A program made the translations under genes and the position numbers. The notes beneath the pieces were generated by a model that searched no databases, was not told the origin of the DNA, and was given only the letters and a program-made list of their open reading frames with translations. A DNA stretch of 64,000 nucleotides from Branchiostoma lanceolatum (lineage: Eukaryota > Chordata > Leptocardii > Amphioxiformes > Branchiostomatidae): assembly GCF_035083965.1 (NCBI RefSeq), contig NC_089723.1, forward strand, positions 31,313,193 to 31,377,192, read 5' to 3'. Below are positions 20,073-63,560 of this stretch, piece after piece (position 1 is the first letter of the stretch; each line of letters begins with the position of its first letter).

Positions 20073-20194
20073 TAGCCTGAGCATCATCCTGGTTAGTTTA
20101 TGTCTACTCTGATAGGCAATACTCACAATCCACAAGTAGCAACTATGTTATGTACTAGAGCAGACAGAAACTAACCAGGAAGGCACCCAGGCTA
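20073..20194. mobile_element. Foldback (MITE-like) element with TAGCCTG ends
   Basis: The left end begins TAGCCTGAGCATCATCCTGG. The reverse complement of the right end begins TAGCCTGGGTGCCTTCCTGG. The arms pair over about 38 bp with several mismatches. The nine bases on each side (ATCTGACAG and ATCCAACAT) match at about six positions, so any target-site duplication has decayed. The ends are the same as those of the intact copy at 39578-39685, so I take this as an older family member. Confidence 0.7.
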
Positions 20195-28600: not shown

Positions 28601-30569
28601 ACAGCACACTAGGGACAGGGAAAGGAACTGCACTTTACATGCTTCCATCCAAGGACACAAAACAGACGCTCATCTTTGTAATAATTGCCTGGAGGTCTTG
28701 GCAAGTCAGACATACATGTATCGTTGTGCTATAATGTACATGTACAATATCAATTCCTCGCCCATTTGAAAATATTTTCAAACATAGCATGCTAAGGACA
28801 TTTATGTCTAGCTACTTCTTTCCAGTCTTTTTGCCAAAATCAAACAAGCGTGTGTGGTTGTTGTTGTTGTTGTATCTAACCTTGAAAACTTACAATTATG
28901 AATCACTATTCGTGAGGAGGTCACACAATACACTACGAATACATATTGAGATAATGTGGCATCACAATACTTAACAATTATAATCAATAATAAACTAAAG
29001 CAAAATCAAAGTCCATTACATCATCAATAAGTCACCATTAATCAATATTTGTAAACACTGGTGTCTTGTTCATACGTCTCCCTTAAGGATGATAGCAAGC
29101 TCCTCTGGTGAAGCCTGGGCACCGTCCTCCATTGTTACCGCTGGCTCATCCATCGTCAGCAAGTGAAAATATTGAGCCAGCAGTAACAATTGAGGACGGT
29201 ACCCAGGCTACCTTTGGTGTCAAGAAGCAGGGCATTCCAGCTGATGACCAGTCCAGCATATTGCAGAGACCTTCTGAACACATTGCTGTTAAATCTATAC
29301 TTACTAATATGTAACAACCATTAACATTAATTCACGGGGTTACGTAAATCCACCACTTTGAAAGACAATGGGTTTGAGAGGTCTCTAGTGCAGCACCCCC
29401 AGGTATGCCAAGTTTAGATGTACAGGAATGCATTATACTGGGTGATTTTGGCTTGGAGATCAGTTTGGACGTGTCTTTTCAGGGTGGCAGAATTATGCAC
29501 CCGGATAGAATTATGTCTGTAGGTGTTACATTTAAGTCAACTGTAATAGATAATCAGGTGATATATAGTACTATACTTACCACCAGGCTGCAGGAATGTC
29601 CGTCCCACATCCCCGTACTGACTGAACATGTGGCGCAGGTTTTTTGGGTTCATGCGTGGCGGCAGGTGACTCAGGTACACCACACCTGGTTCTGATGCTG
29701 GGGCTTCTGTCATCTCCGAGTCGTCGTCATCTTCCTCTTCATCTGATGCCTCGACAGGGGCTTCTGTCCTCGCTGACTGGTCTTCATCTGAAACCAGAAC
29801 ACGAGATATAAAATCAAACCGGAAGTTCCACTGCCGTACCTTAGAGAGCCACTAGGGGGCCAGTATTGAACTGGACCAGACAAATATCATAAGGATCCAT
29901 CCACAGCTTCTAGAGTTACGCTGTCCACAGACACAAACAGCATTGAGAACATAACCTTCTTGGCGAAGGTTATAATAAAAGTCACACATGCAGCCTGATG
30001 CAGGTACCAGCAATGGCAGAGCTCTACAAAGATTTATTTGAGGAAGCTTTTGAATTTTTGTTGTATAATTAATTACTAGAAAGGACTTTTCCTAGGACAG
30101 GACTGCTTGGAGGATCCTCCTGGAAAGCAAGGGGCCAGTTTCTGGCCTGAGCACGTAGGCAGGTAGGCAGGCAGGACTTTTCCTAGGTTCTGATAACAAG
30201 GGTTCATCCTGATTTAACATATCAACATCCAGACCCTGACATCTGAGTACCCAAAAAATTATCACTCTCAGATTCTCTCTAAGAATCTATTAAGCAATCA
30301 TTTGAATTCTAAACACATTTATATCCAGTTAATTTGACTTGGTGGTTTACACTGACCAATTTTACAGACAAAGTCATATCACAACGCTACTAGTAGCTGT
30401 ACAGAAGATAACTTTACATCCCAAACCGGAAGTGGGGGAGGGGGGCAAAGCGCCCTATTTGTATCACGCTCCTATATTTTTGTATACCCACCTGTGCTAC
30501 TCGTGACCTACCTTTGTTCTGTTCTGTCTCCAGGTCGCTGCAACCCGAGGCTTCCCCCTCTCCAGACAT
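22609..30569 (-). CDS. ABT1: Activator of basal transcription 1 / ESF2 RRM protein (three exons)
   Basis: Nucleolar RNA-binding protein of the ESF2/ABT1 family, which acts in early small-subunit rRNA processing. Minus-strand exons are 30512-30569, 29581-29787 and 22609-23159; both junctions split a codon after its first base. The product is 271 residues, essentially the length of human ABT1. Order: an acidic, disordered N-terminus ([10 protein letters not shown]), then the RRM from [12 protein letters not shown] through [17 protein letters not shown] and [20 protein letters not shown]. The family signature [40 protein letters not shown], and a lysine/glutamate-rich coiled C-terminus ending in EGGPALAKK follow. 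The start is the only ATG in the first exon that reads through. The second intron is about 6.4 kb and carries a foldback element at 29111-29210. Confidence 0.95.
23160..29580. other. Large second intron of ABT1
   Basis: AT-rich sequence with no exon I can support on either strand. Scattered frames of 60-100 codons lack similarity and splice support. The recognisable contents are the foldback element at 29111-29210 and a (GTT)n microsatellite near 28858-28874. Confidence 0.6.
29111..29210. mobile_element. Foldback element with near-perfect 9-bp target duplication
   Basis: Left arm starts AAGCCTGGGCACCGTCCTCC. The reverse complement of the right end starts TAGCCTGGGTACCGTCCTCA. The arms pair over about 40 bp with a few mismatches around a short loop. 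The flanks are CCTCTGGTG (29102-29110) and CCTTTGGTG (29211-29219), identical at eight of nine positions. It lies inside the second intron of ABT1. Confidence 0.8.
29948..29976. repeat. Short hairpin ATAACCTTC..GAAGGTTAT
   Basis: ATAACCTTC and GAAGGTTAT pair around a TTGGC loop. Downstream, AGGACTTTTCCTAGG occurs twice (about 30083 and 30174) with a TAGGCAGG-rich stretch between. This may be the remains of a mobile element in the first intron of ABT1, but I could not define its ends. Confidence 0.3.
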
Positions 30570-33500
30570 GCTTACTTTGTGAACAAAATCTATGAAAAAG
30601 TTTCGATGATCAGAACAAGTACGAACAGTTCACCATCACGGGTCCGCTTTTGCCCTAGAGATGGTGTCTAAATTATGAGGAATTTAAGTCATAATCGATT
30701 AGAAACATAGTCCATATGGATGGACCTGTCTGAGCAATGTCGAAACAATGAGGTTCCAATCAAAACAACGCGATATTCCGAATATTTTCTTTTCTCCACG
30801 TGCAAAAACAACCCTGAACCTCAGTCAACCAAACAGGTGATACCATTATAACTTAAAAGGGTAGAAATTGCTTTTAGATATTTTTTGGATCGACTGAATT
30901 TAACACCACTTTCAGTCTTGCCTTACAAATTAAACTTACTTAGTTAAAAAGCTTTGCTTTTATAGTTTTTCACTCCTAAATCTGTACTTTTGAACATGTC
31001 TCACTCGGCGATAACCAAGCTAAATACTAATCCCCCACGATTTTCTTTAGATGAACCCTATCCCTCTTTGGTCTTGTTACGACCTCTGGCGGTTGTATTG
31101 ATAAATACAGCTTTACATATGTTTTTGTATTAAAAGCAAGACAGTATTGTATTCATATGGTACTAGCCCAAATATTCAATGTGATTTCCACATTGATATA
31201 CAAGGCTGGATTATCATTTCAATATCACACGTTCAAATGATCTCACAAAGTATTTCTAGCACCACAAATATAGCCACCCTATTTTCAGACAAACTTATAC
31301 GCTACCAAAACCTAAGGGGGTGCATATTTTATGAAATGCTATAAATCCATCATAGAAACATCATTTTACAAAATAAGTAATAGAATTATTTGGTAAATAA
31401 TTGATATGTAATTTCATGTAATCAAAAATATTTACACATTGTTTTCGTGTGAAATCATTATTACTGTTGACCAATATCAACCCTCAGTAGCTTTGGTATA
31501 TTCCGCCGGCTGGGACCTGAAACAACAACAACACCGAGACTGAAAACAGACGGCTCCGAGCTAGAGGTCGCGTCAAGTTCAGGTTTGCTTTGTTCCGGCC
31601 AGCATTTCCAACATCAAGAAGAACATTTTTACGTTACAATTTTCGTATTCAATGGGTTCAAAGTGGCTAACGTCGGCGTAAAAACAGCTGTGAGTCATTG
31701 ACAAAATCTGTCAGCTGGGTGGAGGGGCCAAAGGTGAAGGGTCCTTGACCTGTAGTACGGCTCCAACGTTGGAGTTTGAAATCAGCCTTAAATTTAGAAG
31801 TTGAGTCACAGTTTAGACTTTTGTTTGTCTGCAACTTGAACAATAGGTTGCAAGCTATCCAGCATACAGTCATCGATGGACAAGTGCATCTGAGTTGGGT
31901 GATTTAAGAATTCAAAAGGTAGGTTGTACAGTTTCAGTTTTCTGTTTTTGAAGTGGTTGTACGGCCTTAATTTTCGCCGTTAACGTTAATTAGTCTAAAA
32001 AATGTGGAGGTCATTTCTCTGGGTCGAGGATAACTGCCAGTGTTTCTGTACATTCGACGTGTAAACTCATTATAGTGAGGCGGTATCGTATGAAAATACA
32101 TTTGTTTCAGTCTAATGAAGTGTGAAATGTGACACCAGTTGCTTTGTTTTGATGCAACTTGTGTTGTAGTAGTATATTATTAGGGCTCACACATCGCATA
32201 TAATAGCATAAAATAACTTACATAATACTCATAGTAACATTACTTTTAGTTTTCTAGTGTAATTTGATTGAATGTTGCAGAATTGCAAAGTAATTTCATG
32301 CTGAGCTCCTCTTTTGTTTTGATATCAAACTTCAAAGTTATTAAATCTTCCTCTGCTTCCAAAAAAAAAGAAGCAAAACCCAACTATACTAGATATAGCA
32401 AACACTCATATTTGAATTAGTCTCCTGTTACATTAATGTCAATCACTGTCCCTGTCACATGTTTTATTATATATGTTTCCTATGTCTCTACCACATAACA
32501 ATGATGTTAAGCCTCCGTTGCAGGCTGCTTCTTGCAGTTTTCTTTTTCAAATTTTATTCACCGTTTTCTGATTGCATTTTTTCTTATTGCTGGCCGAGAA
32601 CGGTAACTTGAAAAAAAAAACAGCCGGAAGGAGTCTGCAATAAAGGCTAATGACATGTATTTTTCCCAAGATGTCAAAAGAAAGTTGTTCAAAGCAGGTC
32701 AGTTTGAATTGTGTACTCTCCAAGCAGAGGAGAGGTTCCGACTGGTTTTTTGACGTGTTTGTTGGGCTTTCTACTTTGTCATTTTCTTTGTCTCTTCAGC
32801 GTGGGGTTTGAAGAGACAAAAAAAAGACAAAGTTGAAAGCCTGACAAAAACGCCTAAAACACATCAAAAACCAGCCGAAACCCCTCCTCTGCTTGGAGAG
32901 TAGAATTGTGTAGTTTCAAGTTCAGCGTCCCCAGTGGTATAGATGTTGTGACAAGGACGTGTCCAAGGAGCCGGAAAGACTGTTGCTAACGCTGACGCCA
33001 CCTGGATCAATACTAATGTAGTTTCAGAGTCAGGGTCGTTAATAACAGCAAGCATGCAATCATCTCGTGGTCTGAACCATCGTGCTCTTGAATAGGAAGA
33101 TTGAATCCTGGCTGACAGGATACTAATCACACTATTTAGTATTACAAAAATGTGTTCTCTCAAAATTTGCTATAACTTGTTTATTATAATATTGCGAATA
33201 AAAAAATACTTTGGGCTTAAATATATGTATATAGGTATATATAGACTAGAGCTAGACCTAAATGATTTAGGAGTCAGACAAAGAATGACATCACCCCTGG
33301 AAATAGAGTATTAGTAATCTGCTAGGGTCAATCAGATGAAGCAAAACACTATTCTGTATGCCATCATATGTCAGGTACACAGTTAAATTGTTCACTTCTA
33401 CAAAACAATAGGCCAATGCTCTATTCAACTTCTTGATCACTTACAATATTCCATCCTAGAATTATATATGCAGTCATTGGGAATATTTTGTGTTAGTCTA

Positions 33501-37580: not shown

Positions 37581-37902
37581 TATCCTTGGTGCTGAATACC
37601 ATCCACACGCAGGCAAAGAAACCTGTCATTGATCCTTGATACTGAACACCATCCATACACTGTTAACACACCTGTCCCTGGTTATAAACATCCACACACA
37701 GGCAGACCCGTGTCCTTGGTGCTGAACACCATCAACAGAGTCAACACACCTGTCCTTGGTGCTGAACACCATCCACTCAAACGCATCTGTCCTTGGTGCT
37801 GAACACAGTCAGCACACGCCTGTCCTTGGTGCTGAACAGCATCCACTCACAGAATCGACACACTCACGGGACCTGTCCCTGAACAACATCCACACAGAGA
37901 AC
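37581..37902. repeat. 43-bp minisatellite, short array (left copy)
   Basis: About eight imperfect units built on CCTTGGTGCTGAACACCATC followed by CACACA(C/G)AGGCA and ACACACCTGT. The same unit makes the longer array at 40081-41253. Each array lies just downstream of one copy of the duplicated two-membrane-segment gene, so the repeat was part of the duplicated block. Unit number differs strongly between the two arrays. Confidence 0.85.
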
Positions 37903-38429: not shown

Positions 38430-39831
38430 CTACGGGATCTGTGCCATGACATTGTAGGCCAACGAGCCCGCCACCAGCGCTCCAACCACGACCAGCGCCA
38501 ATGTCTCGACGCGCTTGATACGCCTTAACACGCGGTGCTTCCTCTCCCGGCATGTCATGTTTTTTGTCATGATGGAGCTCAGGTATAAATTCACGTCTTT
38601 TGAGTTCTCCAGCAGCACCTTGTCTACCGCAGTCTTTTCCGTGTTCTCGATATCACTCGTCGGTTTTACATCTACCGAAGAACCTGGCTTTGGCGCCAAC
38701 TGGGACATCTTGTCCACTGGGTCATCTGGGGCTGTGGGTGATTCCGAGTTGGGAATTGTTTTCGCGGCCCATGGCCTTTGTCTCGCACGGGCATGGTTAT
38801 CGTCCTCAAAATCCAATCGGATCTTTGGCTCATTCTCACGGCGGATAAGCTTGTTCATGTACTTGTGAATGCGAAGTCGCATCATGGCGTTATGGGAGTG
38901 CCTCTCTTGAGCCGTCATGACGTCCCAGGGCTTGAATCTGTGGCGACGTCGCACGTTGTCTGTCGGAGAGGCCACGGGATCATCTTCGCCAAGATGAACC
39001 ACAGTGTGCTTTCGTCCGCCGTCCGTCTCGTCGGGTCGCACGTGGTCTGCCGGAGGAGACACCGGACTTTTCGCCGGAGTCGCTGCCATGTCGTCGGGAA
39101 CTCGGGTGTTGTCTTCTGCAAATGCTGGGACCCTTTCCCTCAGCTTGTGCTTTGAGGTCACCTCGGGATCAGTGGGATAGGTTCCCACTCCGGTATATCC
39201 CCAGCTTCGGTATGGGTGAAAGTTGGTCTCATCTGCAGCGGTGTTTAACTGCACTGTGATTGTCACAACGACCACCTAAAATGAAAACGTTCTTACTTAG
39301 TAACACAGTATGGACAAAAATAAGGTCTGAGTATTCATCCATCGTTACTTGACTTGGGAAATTTCATCATGTTCTGCGAATCAATCCTCAAATCAGCTGA
39401 AACGATATTTACGATTTTTATGCATGAAACTGAAAGCGAGCGTAAACTAATTGCTGTGATCGATAATAACAAATCTGATGACCTATTTTCCCGTTGTTGA
39501 AAGATAGTATTCTATGTACTGCGATAACGTGATGATGTAGAGAACTCACCGTCGTCATAGCTACAGCCAACAACGCCTAGCCTGGGTGCCATCCTATTTC
39601 TACCGGGGCTCCTACACTCGCCTCCCTAAAAAAATAGGGAGGCGAGTGTAGGAGCCCCGGTAGAAATAGGATGGCACCCAGGCTAAACAACGCCGCGATC
39701 AACGCCGCTTTGAACAACCGCCGTCCTTCATCCTGCGGCTCATCGGACACGTCAGAGACCGGAAACCTGGGACACGGGACGCCCCGAGCTCGGGACCGCC
39801 GATGCCTCCGTCGGCCACGGCGTCTCGCCAT
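38430..39831 (-). pseudogene. Unrecognised two-membrane-segment protein, copy A, exon 1 broken by a foldback insertion
   Basis: Paralogue of the gene at 41778-43186. Exons would be 39550-39831 and 38430-39275 (phase 0 junction). The start MARRRGRRRHRRSRARG and the arginine-rich head are kept. Exon 1 carries the 108-bp element at 39578-39685 plus its 9-bp duplication: 117 nt inserted relative to copy B. The length keeps frame, but the element's end reads GGC TAG, a stop at 39577-39579, so translation would end after 84 residues within the first membrane segment. Exon 2 is still fully open for 281 codons and has the same length as in copy B; I count about 49 amino-acid differences, almost none in the last 60 residues. 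So the break looks recent. It could be a new pseudogene, an insertion polymorphism, or a gene using another promoter or splice form. No family is recognised. Confidence 0.75.
39578..39685. mobile_element. Intact foldback element with perfect 51-bp arms and 9-bp target duplication
   Basis: The arms (39578-39628 and 39635-39685) are exact reverse complements, beginning TAGCCTGGGTGCCATCCTAT, with an AAAAAA loop. AACAACGCC flanks it on both sides (39569-39577 and 39686-39694). Copy B has a single AACAACGCC at the matching place (near 43039-43047), which gives the empty site directly. It encodes no protein. It sits inside coding exon 1 of copy A. Confidence 0.95.
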
Positions 39832-40080
39832 CTTGTGCCGATAAAAAACTCTCAACTTTTGACTTGGATAAGGAGAGGCTGTCTGCCTGTGTTGCTTTCA
39901 GTAGTCAGTCGAGATTGTAAACAAGCCACATCGAACGCCGTTGCTAGTCTAGAACAAGGGAGGTTCATTTGCGATTCCAGAACAACGTTTCGAACAATGG
40001 GTCGTTGCCTAATAAAGCTAGTAAAATTAACTACTCTACATGTTGTACTGGAACATTTTGTGGTTACCCGTCGATGCAGA

Positions 40081-41253
40081 ATTTTTCTTTGATGTTGAAC
40101 ACCACCCATACACAGGCAAACACAGATATTCCTGGTGCTGAACACCATCAGTGAACATGCAAATCTAACTGTTCCCGGTAATGAACACCATCCACACACT
40201 CCTGTTCTTGGTGCTGAACGCTATACACATACAGTTAAATACACCTGTCCTTCGTTCTGAACACCATCCACACATAGGCAAATTGAACTGTTCTTGCTGC
40301 TGAACATCGTACACACATAGGCAGACCTGTTCCTCGTGAACACCATCTACGCACACATGCAAACACGCCTATTCTGTGGGTTTACCACTATAACATACAG
40401 GCAAACACACGTGTCCTTCGTGCTGAACGCCATCTACACACAAGCAAACACACCTGTCCTTGGTGCTGAACGCCATCTACACACAAGCAAACACACCTGT
40501 CCTTGGTGCTGAACACAATCTACACACAGGCAAACACACCTGTCCTGGGGTTTACGACTATATATATATACACAGGCAAACACAGCTATTCTTGGTGCTG
40601 GACGCCATTTACACACAATCAAAAATCCATGTCCTTGGTGCTGAACGCCATCTACACACAAGCAAACATACCTGTCCTCGGGGTTTTCCACTATAGACAT
40701 ACAGGCAAACACACCTATCCTTGGTCTGAACGCCATCTTCACACAAGCAAAAGCACCTTTCCTTGGTGCTGAACACCATCCACATACAGGTAAACATGCC
40801 TGTCCTTGGTGCTGAACACCATCCACACACAGGCAAACGCACTTGTCCTTGGTGCTGAACACCATCCACAAACAGGCAAACATACCTGTCCTTGGTGCTG
40901 AACACCATCCACACACAGGCTAACAAACATTTCCTTGGTCCTGAACACTATCCACACACTTGCAAACTTTAAACACATACATGTATGTCCCTGGTTCTGA
41001 ACACCATCAACATACTGGCTAACACACCTAGTCCTGGTGCTGAACACCATCCAACACACAGGCAGATACTTGTCCTTAGTGCTGAACACCTTCCACAAAG
41101 TCAACACACACTTGTCATTGGTGCTGAACTGAACACCATCCACACACAGGCATAAACATCTGTCCTTGGTGCTGAACACCATCGACTCACGGAATCAACA
41201 CACTCACGGGACTTGTCCATGGTGCTGAACAACATCAACACACAGAACAAACA
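40081..41253. repeat. 43-bp minisatellite, long array (right copy)
   Basis: About 26 imperfect units of the same 43-bp repeat as 37581-37902. Because 43 is not a multiple of three, open frames rotate through it on both strands and produce cysteine/valine-rich pseudo-repeats (CVDGVQHQGQ, CGWCSAPRTG, WMVFSTKDR). I treat these as artefacts. A few units near 40370-40700 contain a variant (GGGTTTACCACTATA...) in place of the usual core. The array separates copies A and B of the duplicated gene. Confidence 0.9.
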
Positions 41254-41777: not shown

Positions 41778-43186
41778 CTATGGGATCTGCCCAATAACAT
41801 TGTAGGCCAACGAGCCCGCCACCAGCGCTCCAACCACGACCAGCGCCAATGTCTCGACGCGCTTGATACGCCTTAACACGCGGTGCTTCCTCTCGCGGCA
41901 TGTCATGTTTTTTGTCATGATGGAGCTCAGGTATAAATTCATTTCTTTTGAGTTCTCCAGCAGCGCCTTGTCTACCGCAGTCTTCTCCGTGTTCTCGATC
42001 TCGCTCTTCGGGTTAACATCTACAAACGACCCTGGCTTTGGCGCCAACTGGGACATCTTGTCCACTGGGTCATCTGGGGCTGTGGGTGATTCCGAGTTGG
42101 GAAATGTTTTCGCGGCCCATGGCCTTTGTCGCACACGGGCATGGTTATTGGCCTCAAAATGCGATTGAATCTTTGGCTGATCCTCACGGTGGAGAAGCTT
42201 GTTCATGTACTTGTAAATGCGAAGTCGCATCATGACAATATAGGAATGCTTCTCTTGACTCGTCATGAGGTCCCAGGGCTTGAATCTATGGCGACGTCGC
42301 ACGTGGTCTGTCGGAGAGGCCACGGGATCATCTTCGCTAAGGTGTACCTCAGTGTGCTTTCGTCCGCCGTCCGTCTCGTTGGGTCGCACGTGGTCTGTCG
42401 GAGGAGACACCAGACTTTTCGCCGGAGTCCCTGTCATGTCGTCGGGAACTCGGGTGTCGTCTTCTGCGAAAACTCGGACTCTTTCCCTCAGCTTGTGCTT
42501 TGAGGTCACCTCGGCATCAGTGGGATAGTTTCCCGCTCCGCTATATCCCCAGCTCCAGTAAGGGGGAAGGTTGGTCTCATCTGCAATGGCGTTTAACTGC
42601 ACTGTGACAGTCATAACGACCACCTGAAATGAAAACGTTCTTACTTAATGGACAAAAACAGGCATCGGTGTCATGTGAATCCAGCGTTACTTGGGAAAAT
42701 GTTTATCATGTTCTGCGAATCATAGCTTCTCAAATAAGCTGCAGCTGAAACGATCATTATGATTTTTGATGCATGAAACTCAAGAGCCATCGTAAACTAA
42801 TCGGTATCCTGTGATCGATAATAACAAATCTGATTACCCATTTTCACACTGTTAAAAGATGGTATTCTATCTATAGAGAAAACTAGCCTGACGAATCGCG
42901 CACCTTAGTGGCCAGCCGGTCCTGTGACCGCCATCCCCCTAGGGGTGGGGGTCAGTAACCTCCGGCCGAGAGCTTGTGTAACACAGGCTATAGAGAAAAC
43001 GTGATGATGTAGGAAACTCACCGTCGTCACAGCTACAGCCAACAACGCCGTGATCACCGCCGCTTTGAACAACCGCCGTCGTTCATCCTGCGGCTCATCG
43101 GACACGTCAGAGGCCGGGAACCTGGGACACGGGACGCCCCGAGCTCGGGACCGCCGATGCCTCCGTCGGCCACGGCGTCTCGCCAT
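41778..43186 (-). CDS. Unrecognised two-membrane-segment protein with arginine-rich N-terminus, copy B (intact)
   Basis: Minus-strand exons 43022-43186 and 41778-42623 join in phase 0 (CAG/GTGGTCGTT acceptor) to 336 residues. The head MARRRGRRRHRRSRARG is strongly basic. Residues ~39-66 (LFKAAVITALLAVAVTT joined to VVVMTVTVQL) form a hydrophobic segment split by the intron. A polar, probably disordered region of ~220 residues follows, including a short internal echo (SPPTDHVRP, SPTDHVRRR). A basic stretch CRERKHRVLRRIKR and a final hydrophobic segment VETLALVVVGALVAGSLAY end the protein. NMT is a possible glycosylation site. The start is the ATG at 43186; no upstream in-frame ATG is needed. 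I recognise no domain. The tandem copy and conserved C-terminus support a real gene, possibly lineage-specific. Confidence 0.7.
42884..42990. mobile_element. Short element with TAGCCTG ends and 10-bp target duplication, in the intron of copy B
   Basis: The ends are TAGCCTG and CAGGCTA; inside is a GC-rich hairpin around CCATCCCCCTAGGGGTGGGG. TAGAGAAAAC lies on both sides (42874-42883 and 42991-43000). The matching intron of copy A lacks the element and is about 120 bp shorter, which confirms an insertion. Only the tips match the TAGCCTGGG family, so it may be a separate family using similar ends. Confidence 0.75.
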
Positions 43187-45201: not shown

Positions 45202-48200
45202 ATGGTGATCTACAGCACCGACCGCCCGTGGAACTACGACTGCAGCTTCGTGGCTGGCAGTGGCCGGAGGAAGTACTTCCGCCAGGAGGTGTACATGGTG
45301 TTCCCTCCTACCTTCTCCTCCGGACACCACGGGTCGGCTGCCTACTTCACCAAGCCTACCGCCTCCGTCCGCCTCAAGCTCAACAGGTCCCCGAACGCCC
45401 GCAGGAGGTAAGATGTGAAGATGGTGCAACGAAATTAGCCAGATATTGTGAAGTTGATCCAGTTTGCCATAATTATTCGAGTCCTAGAGAAACCAACAGA
45501 AACTTCAGTGACGTCAAAATACAAATCATGCTAAATCATGATGTTTTCTATACAGCTGAAGAAAACATTTGACATTCCCTTCTGCCACTCAAGTCAATCG
45601 CTGTTTTGATATAGCCGGCTAGATTTTACGCTTAGACTGGTGGGGTTTTTTTTACATCACAAAATGTAATGTAATTGAAGTTGTATAGTTGTAGTGTTTT
45701 CATTGGGGAATACATATTCCAATAGACCGAAGACGGTTAATCTCAGTGTGTGTATGACTATGTAACAGTGGTGTTCAAGCGCCTCCAACTGACCAGCCTA
45801 ACTGGTCTAGACCCCGGATTCGACTTCATATATTCCCATGGACTTGTGGTGCTATAAAGCTGTAATATATTTCATCATCATCATCAGTCGACGTGCTTTT
45901 ACGCAACGTCGGGGTTATACCACCCCTTGTTGGCTAATACAAGACGCCGGGGATGCGCCAGGTCTCCCGTCCGGGTGAATGATAGTACATGAAAATCACC
46001 GTATGGCTGATAAGAGATGGAGGTTCGCCAGGCCCCCATCCGGGTGATTTGCAGTAATATATTTACCGTCAGTCTTTCAGCAAATATGAATATGCTGGAC
46101 GCGAAACATTCTCGTTGCATTTTAGGAAATATTATTCTTTAAATTGCAATAATTATTAGCCCGAGTGTCATCGAACCAGTTTACCCAAGGACATTATATC
46201 CTTAGTTTCCCGGGGCTCCCATATTCTCCTAGGACGACACTCGGGCTAAATAATCCTACCTAGTTTTCTTTGCTAACAGTACAGTCGATCGGTGACTATC
46301 TTGTAACCTTAGATATCTCTGTATCATATGGAAAGCGTAGCAAAAGGAAATAGAAACCATAAAACAGTGTCCTTGTCCTTTTGGGACACTTTTTGACGGG
46401 GACGCAATAGAACCATCCTTCATCCATTGACGTAAAGCGTACCATGTTTGGTCATCGTCGATGCGTCATCCTGATACGTCATCTTGACATGTTGTATAAA
46501 AGAAATAAACAGCATAAGCTAAACAAATAGACATGTTTTCAAATTGTAATGAATACCCAACCTTGCAATCCGCTAGCTTATATCAGGGATTCGATTTTTT
46601 TTTTAAACTTCTTCTTCTTCTTCTTGTCATCCGAAAAAAAAACTTTAAAAAAACTTACGGGCTAAAGAACAATAAAATTCTAAGCTCGGTGCGGTACCTA
46701 AATCAGGGTAGCGACACTTTGTATTTATCAGACTGCAAGACTACATTTGTCATTCCGTAATTAGGCCTGTAACCAGGTTGTATGTGCTATGAGAAGACGT
46801 GTTTGATTTCATTAAATCTATTTGCTGTCGCATAATCGCACATATAGCTCGTTTGACACATACTAACTTGGGACAAAACGCCAGGCGAAAAACCCATCGT
46901 CATACTGACAAGCAGCATGAAACACTAACGTTCACAACGTTATGTAACAAGTTTCCCCCGAAAAGTTTCACGTACAAACAGCCTGTCATCGAGTGTTGCA
47001 GTTCAGTCAAACAGATGTCAGTGTGTCTAAAAGTGGGTATTCTATAAACCAGTCTACTATACTAAATACCAACTGCATCTGTCTTGGTGGTGTAGTTAGT
47101 ATTCCATTGCGCGCAGTGCGTGACCTGTAGGTCCTGTAGCGAACCGCTGCGGTCGTCATTTCCGATCGCTAGTCCACACGACGCCAGAGGTGTGAGGTTA
47201 GGCCATGTTGATTTGATTGCATGGATGACATCCTCTGGGTACCCCAAACCTGATGCGAGCGTGCGAATGAAAAATAAGTTTGGCAAAATAAAAAAAGTTG
47301 CCTTTATTATGAAAAATCTGCGTACGTGGTCAGGAAGGACGAATAAAATCTAACATGGCATACCGAAATATAGACTATTAATTTTTGTTCTTTCAAAACA
47401 TCCTCTTTGACTTTGGAATTGGCAATGGCATTCTGAGACTTCAAGTATCCGTTTTGCGAAATATTTTTTGCAATCTACAGCATGTATTTTCTCATTTTGC
47501 ATCTGCTTTTTACGATTTACAGTATAATGGTGGAAAACCCATCTTTATCATCTGGAAACCGACGAAATTGATGCGCGCGGATGTCATCCATATAACCAAA
47601 TCAACATGGCCTTAGCTACTGTCGATGCTGCTGATACCCTTGCGGTTCAGCCCGCTCCGTGGTGATGCCACACAGCACTTGCCCCAGACCGACCCTTCGT
47701 GACGACCCGGTAACCGAGAACATACCGACGCCGCGGAGTATGTGCTGATAGAGCCTTTTATGACGCTGTTGTTGGGGGTCACATCGGCAATCTAAAAACG
47801 ATTTTGTGACCATATATAAGGAGACATGATCAGGAACACGCCGCTTCGCAGTACATGTTGGGGGTAGTGTCCCTTGTCTGACCTAGTTGGCTCCTTTTTT
47901 ACGACTTCTTGGGGAGGGGGGTGTATCCCCAGTTTGCCAGGTGTGGAAAAAGTTATTTTAGCAAGGAATCCAAGGATAGGCAGGCAGTTGATGTCGTAAT
48001 GCTGCCTGAATGGTCATGGTCAACGTTCAACGGTGTACACAACCGACTATATAATAAACACACAAGCACTTTGATACGATTTGCACATTCGATGATAGCC
48101 GTAAAGCATATGAACAGTTGCTTAATACAAGTCAAAACTGTACTAAATTGATTAAAGTACCACGCTCACTCATCCAGACATCTCCTTCGACCCTTTGTAC

Positions 48201-60008: not shown

Positions 60009-63000
60009 CTAGTAGCTGTCTGTAGACTTGTAGTGGTTCTCATCTATGGTGGAGTATATGTGACCCTCGTTACTCAGGAACTCAACGGCATTCCTGGAAA
60101 TACAACATGACAGAGTTACTGGTGTGCGGCCTCACCAGCGTGGACCTGCTGGACAGAGTGCGAACCCACTGGAATAGCCGACTGCTGCCCACCCCCGTGT
60201 CAGGGAAACCCGCAACAGTATAATCAAATACTGGATACTACTACTAGTTACTGTGTGTTACTCCTTACACACACTTGTTTCTGTCAGCAGAAAAAATACA
60301 GACATGTGCAATTAATTTAGTCTATATAACGCAAACTCCCACTGTTAGGCACTTTTATGGCCCCTCCCCGCAGAGGGCACTGTTGGGCCCCTGAAGAGGG
60401 ATTCAATTAGGCCAGAAACAATTTAGACTGTAAAAAGCCATGAAATACCTCTAAAATATCGTATTTTGGCACAATGGTGATTTAGAAGGTCAGAACACTG
60501 TCTGGACCATTGCAATGTCTTTCAATGTTTTGCCTTCTCCTGGTGTTACGTTCCTTTGAGTAGACTTAATACACACTACAGCTGCCCACCTGACTGCATC
60601 CCTGGAGATGCCCCTCAGGCGCTGTTCGATCACAGACACGTTGACTCCTGACTCATCCTGGCTGCTCTGGATCATTGTCAGAACCTGTGAGGAGGGAGGA
60701 GTGTCAGACTAGGTAGGATGTGACTGCAGTTCTACCTAATCATGCTAGGTGGCACACACACTCATGATGAGCAATGAACTCATCATGACTCTGTTTCTCT
60801 CTATCATGTGAAACGTGCCATTCCATTCCATTCTGTATCAAGTAGTGATGTTAGTACACTAGTTTAAATATTTCATAGTTGTTTATATTCCATGTTATTT
60901 GCCATATATTGTACCTGTTGCAATTGTTGTGCAATAAACTTTGACTGACTGCCTGACTGACTGCACAGCAGATGTAGTATGTTTGTAAGCTTCTTCTTTG
61001 AATGAAATTTGCAAGATTCACGTAGAACCACTTGCCTGGTTCTGAACATTGTTGAGGCCAAGGTCATTGACTAAACCCTGCTGACCCGTGGGTCTCCCAC
61101 CGGTGTTCTGTTTCTGTCCTCCCATCCCTGCAGACGTGCCTCCAGTCGACTGCTGTTTAATAGGAATATAAAATATAAATGTTATGACGTATGATCTACA
61201 ACAATCATTGTACAGTATACACATACCACTATTCTTGTCAATCTATGAGTAGGACACCACAAAATTCACCTGATACTCCCTGAGACAAATTGCCTTCATT
61301 TAGCAGCTTATACACATTCAAGTGTATCATCTAAAGAGAGCTGGTATGGTCTTGCACAACTTTCCACACTCTACTTTTTAATAGTGTAGACCTGCCATAC
61401 TCACCGAGCCCTTTTCTAACATCATATGTGCTTGAACCACCTCCAGTATGTGCATGGTGAGTTCGTTATAGTCAGTAACTGGTGCGATCTTGAAGGCCAC
61501 CAGGCTCTTCTTGCCCTGGAACGCCCTCAGGTGACCCGTGGCTCGGATGTAACTGTTGACGGGGTAGAGTTGGTCTTGATCCTCGTCTGGAATGTTATCC
61601 TGGAATGTACAAATGGACATGGTTTATATTTCCTGTAACGTATATACCTACATTGAATGGGCATGTTTTCAATCTCCAAACATTTGCTGCGGTCTAAGTC
61701 ATCCACATTGCTACATGCTACAACAGCACAATGCTGTAAAATTTGTACAGATGTAGCATCATCCTAACTGTAATAAAATGCAGCACTATCTTCTGAATAT
61801 AATGTTGTTGTTCAATAATATCTTTGTTAATACAAAGAAAAAATTACAGTACATAGACAAGAGAAGATGCCAAATACCAAAGTACAAGTATGTGCATGGT
61901 GGCCTCATGGTTATCGTATCATGTTGATTAATAACAATACTCATAACAAGTACATGCACACAGGCATTCTTCAGACCAACTACTACAGCACCCTTATGTG
62001 CTGCTGCAGACCTACCCACAGAACTAGATGTTGTGCTACTCACATCATTGTCCAGCCACTGCCTGACGTCCATGGGAGGACCTGTCATGTCGTCGATCTT
62101 GTACAGGATGTTGGTGGGAGCCCTGGTGGCATTTCGGACTACCCCAACTATGGTCACCTGTGTGTGACAACACAACAGATTATTAAAGTAGTCAAAGTGG
62201 ACATCATACAATGTGTTTAAATAGCCAGTACACAATAATACCTATAAACATTTTGTATGTTGGGTGGGCATCATATTTGTGTTTAAATACTAGTAACCAG
62301 TACACATACCCCACATACATTTTGTTTATGGGTATGGGCAGTCTTTCTGGTTATTGTTGCTTCAATTTCAACAACATTTGTGGACAGAAATCATGTAGCT
62401 AGCTGTACATGGTTAGTCTCCAACCAGACCCAATAGATTGCAAAGACCGTATCCAACTGGAAGAAGGAGCTTATAGTGCAATCTAAGGTCTGGAACAAGT
62501 CGGTCTGAACAAAGGCTATTAACATCTAATTGTTACCTAATCAAACTGTGCTTCTGTAAGTGAGTTTATTACTCTCTGTCCGCACGGGCGTGCGGCGCCA
62601 TGCCGGGCTGACACCTCCAGGCCGCGACTGAGAGGCCGTTCACTTGGGCAGAGCTGTACCGCGAAAATTAAACTTCCCAGGAAAAATAAACTAACAGAAA
62701 AGACTTGGTCTCTTTTTCAAAATCAATCTGTTACGAAGATCGCTACCAAAACTGCTTCAATCGTCACAAAATGCGATCAATTTTGACCAGTTACGTCGGA
62801 ACTGTAAGGGCTATTCCCGCCATGTAATCTCTTGTAATAGTGGCTTGAACCCGAAACAGTAAACATTGTCTACGAATGTCTTTATAAGAACGGTTTTCCA
62901 TGATGCCACAAACATCGCCGATGGGTGAAAGAAACTGCTATTGTGAGAGCTTTTTACTAGGCTCAACCAAGGCGCGAACCTCCCACTGGGACGTGCGCGG

Positions 63001-63560
63001 GTGACTGGGCTTGGTCATAAAAAGATTAGTACCCCGGACATTCGTACGGCTGTTAGAATTACAACGAGGAGGGGCAGCGGCACCTTTATTGAATAGAAAT
63101 GCTCCGCCCTGTTTGAGTTGTAGCAGACCTTGGGTTGGCTATGAAAACTCCTTCTGCCTGTTGGATACGGTCTTTGCCAACCCGTAGGTCTGCTTGGAGA
63201 CTAGTACATGGTGTCCTAAACACATACTGTACCTGATAACAGAAATAGCAGTCTTTCTGTAGTTATACAATTGATAATGAGGACATGTGTAACGATAGAT
63301 TAATCAAACACAGTAATAGCACGACTCCTGATTGCTGGAGTTCATCAGGACATGAAAGTTAGCTACTGCTGAACAACTTCAGGTGTCCTAACTGTCATTT
63401 CTAATATGGACAAAATGGTTGTACATCACTTCAGTGTATAATCTCAGATGAAAGATGTTACCTGATTAATATCAGTTTCCCCCAGTCTGAAGGAATCTTC
63501 CATCTGCTGGGCTTGTAGAAGGTGTGAAACGGTGCATGGCAACAGGTTCTGGGCTCTCCT
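60009..63560 (-). CDS. RPA2: Replication protein A 32-kDa subunit, partial (5' end outside window)
   Basis: Middle subunit of the RPA single-stranded-DNA-binding heterotrimer used in replication, repair and checkpoint signalling. Six minus-strand exons are visible: 63462-63560, 62044-62157, 61405-61599, 61036-61152, 60590-60684 and 60009-60093. They join in frame to 234 residues plus stop. The OB-fold runs from [20 protein letters not shown] through [38 protein letters not shown] and [20 protein letters not shown] to [12 protein letters not shown]. After a glycine/glutamine linker comes the C-terminal winged helix ([20 protein letters not shown]) used for partner binding. About 40 residues, including the serine-rich phosphorylation region, are missing and must be encoded right of 64000. 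The intron after 61036 starts with GC (CAG/GCAAGT) instead of GT. The acceptor at 61153 is a NAGNAG site (CAGCAG). Confidence 0.96.
62414..63203. mobile_element. 790-bp non-autonomous element with long inverted ends, inside an RPA2 intron
   Basis: The left end begins TAGTCTCCAACCAGACCC. The reverse complement of the right end begins TAGTCTCCAAGCAGACCT. Both continue through CAAAGACCGTATCCAAC and AGAAGGAG to AAGGTCTG, giving inverted ends of about 80 bp. Each end is itself a hairpin (CAGACC...GGTCTG). GTACATGGT flanks it on both sides (62405-62413 and 63204-63212), a perfect 9-bp target-site duplication. The interior includes a GC-rich patch near 62580-62660 and no meaningful open frame. The RPA2 intron's splice sites are untouched. 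Confidence 0.9.

Follow-up and report, generated by a model that had tools for sequence, protein, structure and literature searches.

Elements of the Mutator superfamily make target site duplications of 9-11 bp, and the MITEs derived from the Mutator-like elements (MULEs) combine a 9-bp duplication with long inverted ends. The hAT superfamily is characterised by an 8-bp duplication, and foldback (FB) elements have arms composed of internal repeats, with a 9-bp duplication in the case of Drosophila FB. For amphioxus itself, a group of MITEs with five named families, LanceleTn, was reportedly described by Osborne and colleagues in 2006. Within the window (the whole 64-kb stretch of lancelet DNA that was analysed) we found a comparable element in the first exon of a gene, copy A, that has a tandem paralogue, copy B, and consider it very probable that a young, perhaps polymorphic MITE insertion disables copy A. 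The features concerned are the following:

39550..39831, minus strand: exon 1 of copy A, interrupted, 282 nt (predicted boundary)
38430..39275, minus strand: exon 2 of copy A, open, 281 codons and a stop (from the frame)
43022..43186, minus strand: exon 1 of copy B, 165 nt without interruption, with the empty site (predicted boundary)
41778..42623, minus strand: exon 2 of copy B, open, 281 codons and a stop (from the frame)
39578..39685, no strand: foldback MITE, 108 bp, with arms 39578-39628 and 39635-39685 and loop 39629-39634
39569..39577, no strand: target site duplication, copy 1, AACAACGCC, read at the element flank
39686..39694, no strand: target site duplication, copy 2, AACAACGCC, read at the element flank
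39577..39579, minus strand: in-frame TAG, formed by the element's end and one host base

The first exons of the two copies differ in length by 117 nt (282 versus 165 nt), which is the sum of a 108-bp element and a 9-bp duplication. The arms of the element are complementary at 51 of 51 nt (100%) and separated by 6 nt, its ends read TAGCCTGGGTGCC (TAGCCTGGGTGCCATCCT ends), and the flanks on both sides read AACAACGCC. The preliminary description had deduced that a foldback element was inserted into one member of a tandem pair of paralogues, from an exon 1 that equals that of copy B plus 117 nt, from two identical 51-bp arms in a 108-bp element and from a perfect 9-bp duplication; each of these statements was borne out by the measurements, and the insertion itself also by the empty site, the similar elements nearby and the open exon 2 presented below. 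Copy B carries AACAACGCC once, without an element there, and because the host parts of exon 1 show 132/137 and 27/28 identities, copy B represents the empty site. A 9/9 flank match at the spacing of this element had a frequency of 4e-5 among 400,000 randomly drawn pairs of window positions, and a search for TAGCC..GGCTA ends with a perfect 9-bp repeat (with a preset spacing of 60-400 bp and the repeat taken directly from the ends) returned one case in the window and none in 200 resampled windows. When folded alone, the element yielded -115.2 kcal/mol, whereas its shuffles averaged -36.8 (z -21.9), and when folded together with exon 1, it yielded a z of -13.4. The element has the following characteristics of a MITE: it is short (108 bp) and non-coding, it has terminal inverted repeats (51-bp arms), and it is accompanied by a target site duplication and by an empty site in copy B.

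Four further elements of 92-122 bp in the window are like the one in copy A by their ends and size, none being a close copy:

42884..42990, no strand: TAGCCTG-ended element, 107 bp, in the intron of copy B, with a 10-bp duplication TAGAGAAAAC (42874-42883 and 42991-43000)
29111..29210, no strand: similar element, 100 bp, left end AAGCC, right end GGCTA, flanks 8/9
20073..20194, no strand: similar element by ends and size, 122 bp, arms 82% over 38 nt
46157..46248, no strand: similar element, 92 bp, TAGCCCGAG ends, flanks 7/9

Three of the four are flanked by repeats of 9-10 bp (10/10, 8/9 and 7/9, the last being a weak match when taken alone, with a frequency of 0.0025), and no duplication was seen at the flanks of the 20-kb element. 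The arms of the intronic element in copy B match over 7 bp and hardly beyond. Nucleotide likeness to the copy A element is clear only over the terminal 18 bp, for the 20-kb element (17/18) and the 29-kb element (16/18). The idea that the arms of the family members are mutually unrelated was dropped, as the copy A element resembles the 46-kb element inside the arms (21 bp, 81%, with an E of 2.6 that is a chance-level score by itself).

Several other observations were made on repeats in the window. Both copies were struck near the homologous donor, with 28 exon bases up to the element in copy A and 31 intron bases in copy B; these are different elements at different sites, and the proximity was noticed post hoc. 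Positions 1988-2099 form a perfect, loopless palindrome of 112 bp without flanking repeat, which is either another foldback or an artefact. Two more inverted-repeat elements lie at 62414-63203 (TAGTCTCC end, arms 83% over 59 nt, perfect 9-bp duplication GTACATGGT) and at 32714-32902 (its ends read TACTCTCC, its arms are 92% alike over 37 nt, and the repeat GAATTGTG(TA) of 8-10 bp flanks it).

Since similar elements with like ends and flanking repeats are present in the window, we take the copy A element, judging by its structure, to be a MITE (i.e. a short non-autonomous DNA transposon) with a 9-bp duplication that belongs to a local family; the Mutator type is our best guess, derived from the length of the duplication. 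The element shares the 9-bp duplication and the long inverted ends with the MULE MITEs, and the lengths of the duplications agree with those of Mutator (9 bp at copy A; 10, 9 (8/9) and 9 (7/9) bp at three neighbours), but no MULE transposase is tied to its ends, which start with TAGCC. None of the 16 frames of at least 150 aa in the window matched a MULE transposase, and the one Transposase_21 match, in a minisatellite frame, was below the curated cut-off (E 0.0014). The duplications do not have the 8 bp of hAT, being perfect at 9/9 for the copy A element and 9-10 bp long for the neighbours; taken alone, the copy A element may have an 8-bp duplication plus one chance base. The FB elements share with it the almost wholly inverted arms and the 9-bp duplication, but the copy A element is only 108 bp long and lacks repeats within its arms, the sole direct repeat in 39400-40000 being a host repeat (39688-39711). 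The introner-type MITEs resemble it in that an insertion of MITE size sits in a coding exon and is accompanied by a duplication, but in the present case no good splice-site pair in the ends and duplication removes the insertion exactly. The LanceleTn elements agree with the copy A element in being short, non-coding, inverted-repeat elements of a lancelet with target duplications. An exact 30-base search of viral contigs with the element's end gave 0 matches, as expected for an animal element, and the literature matches to the end sequence look, by their titles, like primer matches.

Copies A and B are predicted to be tandem two-exon genes for a two-pass membrane protein, with the exon boundaries inferred from the paralogue together with the frame and the splice consensus. 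The predicted protein of copy B has 336 residues and hydrophobic segments that start at residues 43 and 314, and both copies retain the donor and acceptor motifs. Two more claims of the preliminary description could be followed directly in the reading frames, namely that exon 2 of copy A is fully open (281 codons and a stop; 846 nt in each copy, no gap, 772/846 identical) and that the insertion keeps the frame by its length of 117 nt yet brings in the TAG at 39577-39579. On the coding strand this TAG lies at the 3' junction, where the element ends in T and A and the second host repeat begins with the G. The minus-strand frame of copy A ends after 84 residues (48 native, one at the junction and 35 element-coded), TAG being codon 85. 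The predicted product keeps the arginine-rich start, contains a hydrophobic segment that is partly element-coded (mean 2.38) and loses all of exon 2. Copy A hence has what marks a disabled paralogue: a disabling change (the TAG at codon 85) in an otherwise intact copy with an open exon 2. The TAG lies 27 nt ahead of the sole predicted exon junction of copy A, and given the 50-55 nt rule for mRNA decay, the copy A mRNA might escape decay.

With 0 mismatches in 51 positions, the divergence of the arms is bounded to at most about 2.9% per arm (95%), and the non-coding divergence since the split of A and B amounts to about 7.8-11.4% per copy. Because the bound lies below the non-coding divergence and because copy B holds the empty site, the insertion is clearly younger than the duplication of the genes, unless the arms convert each other. 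The earlier qualification of the event as recent stands in the sense of this order; the age as such is only bounded, by the same figure and under the same proviso.

As possible escapes the preliminary description had named the loss of the element from the RNA, another start codon and a polymorphic insertion; for the first of these the splice signals are weak. Copy A might still make a long protein if its RNA or a start further down circumvented the insertion (via donors in the element, the ATG at 39558 or editing of the UAG), which we consider improbable. Splicing from the element donors 39604 and 39616 leaves exon 2 open in both cases (353 and 357 residues), but these donors score 2.4 (39604) and 2.5 (39616) versus 10.1 for the normal donor located 55-67 nt downstream, on a frequency-based scale. 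The frame is open to the end of exon 2 with 5 of the 18 other exon-1 donors and with 7 in-exon GT-AG pairs as well, and therefore such in-frame fits are commonplace. A strong acceptor-like T-run with a score of 11.0 ends at 39625, and exon 1 offers no good donor to pair with it; the one GT-AG pair that spans 117 nt (scores -0.2 and -0.6) relies on an acceptor in host sequence beyond the duplication. Support for an RNA route may be seen in amphioxus PRHOXNB, for which a gained intron that holds a MITE is cited in a passage of PMC5802833. As to a later start, the sole exon-1 difference downstream of the insertion creates the following codon:

39556..39558, minus strand: in-frame ATG after the stop, unique to copy A (copy B reads GTG at 43028-43030)

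Initiation there would leave little of the first hydrophobic segment, the best mean over 19 residues being 0.91 instead of 2.52, and an out-of-frame ATG at 39592 comes before this start. With respect to editing, UAG is a favoured ADAR context and the predicted hairpin runs about three pairs beyond the element, so that the UAG is inside it; yet the codon lies right at the base of the stem, a position at which inefficient editing would be expected. We judge none of these routes to be likely. The most far-reaching form, in which living animals would edit the UAG of the 54-bp predicted hairpin to tryptophan, or splice the element donors in frame to exon 2, and so make a new membrane protein with transposon-coded residues, is in our view highly improbable; a literature search with all terms together found nothing joining MITE, premature stop and A-to-I editing.

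That the predicted exons are not used as such in either copy, and hence that no coding exon was broken, is very unlikely too, and here the comparison of the two copies bears on the matter. Coding positions differ less between A and B than non-coding positions do (80/1011 versus 115/701, p 8e-8), and the 1005 coding nt hold 0 indels, whereas the 701 aligned non-coding positions contain 15 internal ones (Fisher p 2e-6); these figures, like the splice motifs kept in both copies, speak against unused exons. Because of this absence of coding indels, the reading frame of the pair appears to have been guarded over most of the time since the duplication, while the protein changed fast. What could be held in favour of unused exons is that no Pfam family was found in any of three queries (exon 2 of copy A, exon 2 of copy B and exon 1 of copy B), and that dN/dS between the copies is indistinguishable from 1 (0.76 overall, with a bootstrap interval of 0.48-1.30 and 14.8% of the replicates reaching at least 1), for which reason constraint at the protein level is weak or unproven. 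By part, dN/dS is 0.70 for exon 2, 0.34 for the last 80 codons of exon 2 and 1.61 for exon 1, where it is based on five differences only, one of the six being omitted because the exon junction splits its codon. The comparison of exon 2 that had been proposed as a check was made pairwise between A and B and gave this value of 0.70.

The non-coding identity of the copies is 213/265 in the intron (7 gaps; aligned with the intronic MITE of copy B removed), 239/280 in the 3' flank and 134/156 in the 5' flank. The possibility that the tandem pair is a haplotig artefact was rejected, since this identity (80-86%) is far under the allelic level expected from the SNP polymorphism of 4.39% given for the Chinese lancelet in a part of PMC4284660. 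Perfect palindromes can arise as assembly or library artefacts, and the loopless palindrome at 1988-2099 would fit such a process, but for the palindrome in copy A this origin is extremely improbable, as an artefact would not be expected to carry a perfect 9-bp duplication and to have neighbours with like ends and flanking repeats.

The window furthermore contains a minisatellite with a unit of about 43 bp (40196-41190) and a second array with a 40-bp unit (37633-37849). The minisatellite has 7 gathering-level matches to Rfam mir-2060, which we take to be an amphioxus family, and 8 at E ≤ 0.001, one of them below gathering. The mir-2060 consensus reads as two tandem copies of the minisatellite unit, and of two of the seven matches that were folded (z -1.44 and 0.59), neither was much more stable than its shuffles. 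The sequence of bbe-miR-2060c-3p, listed for Branchiostoma belcheri in a section of PMC5650284, was found at 13 places with at most 2 mismatches, 2 of them exact. The mir-2060 'miRNA family' may thus be a minisatellite that yields small RNAs. Among the frames of the window, two had Pfam matches to FGF and one to Dapper, and these frames, taken with the mir-2060 matches, indicate a lancelet as the host; a PDB search with the Dapper-like frame gave 0 matches, and a scan for bacterial promoters and terminators, which is unsuited to animal DNA, returned nothing.

Under the reading we favour, the disablement of copy A, a transposase supplied from elsewhere would have put a short non-autonomous element into exon 1. 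The insertion would add 35 element-coded codons, one junction codon and the TAG, leaving 84 residues from the usual start and none from exon 2, and copy A would be a recently disabled copy or allele, the loss of which is presumably tolerated because copy B is intact; the insertion is perhaps still polymorphic. Counting against disablement are the undecayed state of exon 2 in copy A, and the dN/dS values between the copies (0.76, with 0.48-1.30, and 1.61 in exon 1). The kind of event is known: it is an ordinary gene-breaking insertion in an animal rich in such elements. In the Chinese lancelet, where TE and indel polymorphism is very high according to the same part of PMC4284660, 65-77% of large indels (of 300-10,000 bp, thus larger than the copy A insertion) are ascribed to TE activity, and in view of this and of the SNP level mentioned above, the disabling of one tandem copy by a young MITE comes as no surprise there. 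The locus offers a clean case in which a MITE breaks one tandem copy in a highly polymorphic chordate while the empty site is preserved in the adjoining paralogue, and if rescue at the RNA level, by splicing or editing, were true, the tolerance of exonic hairpin insertions would become directly testable.
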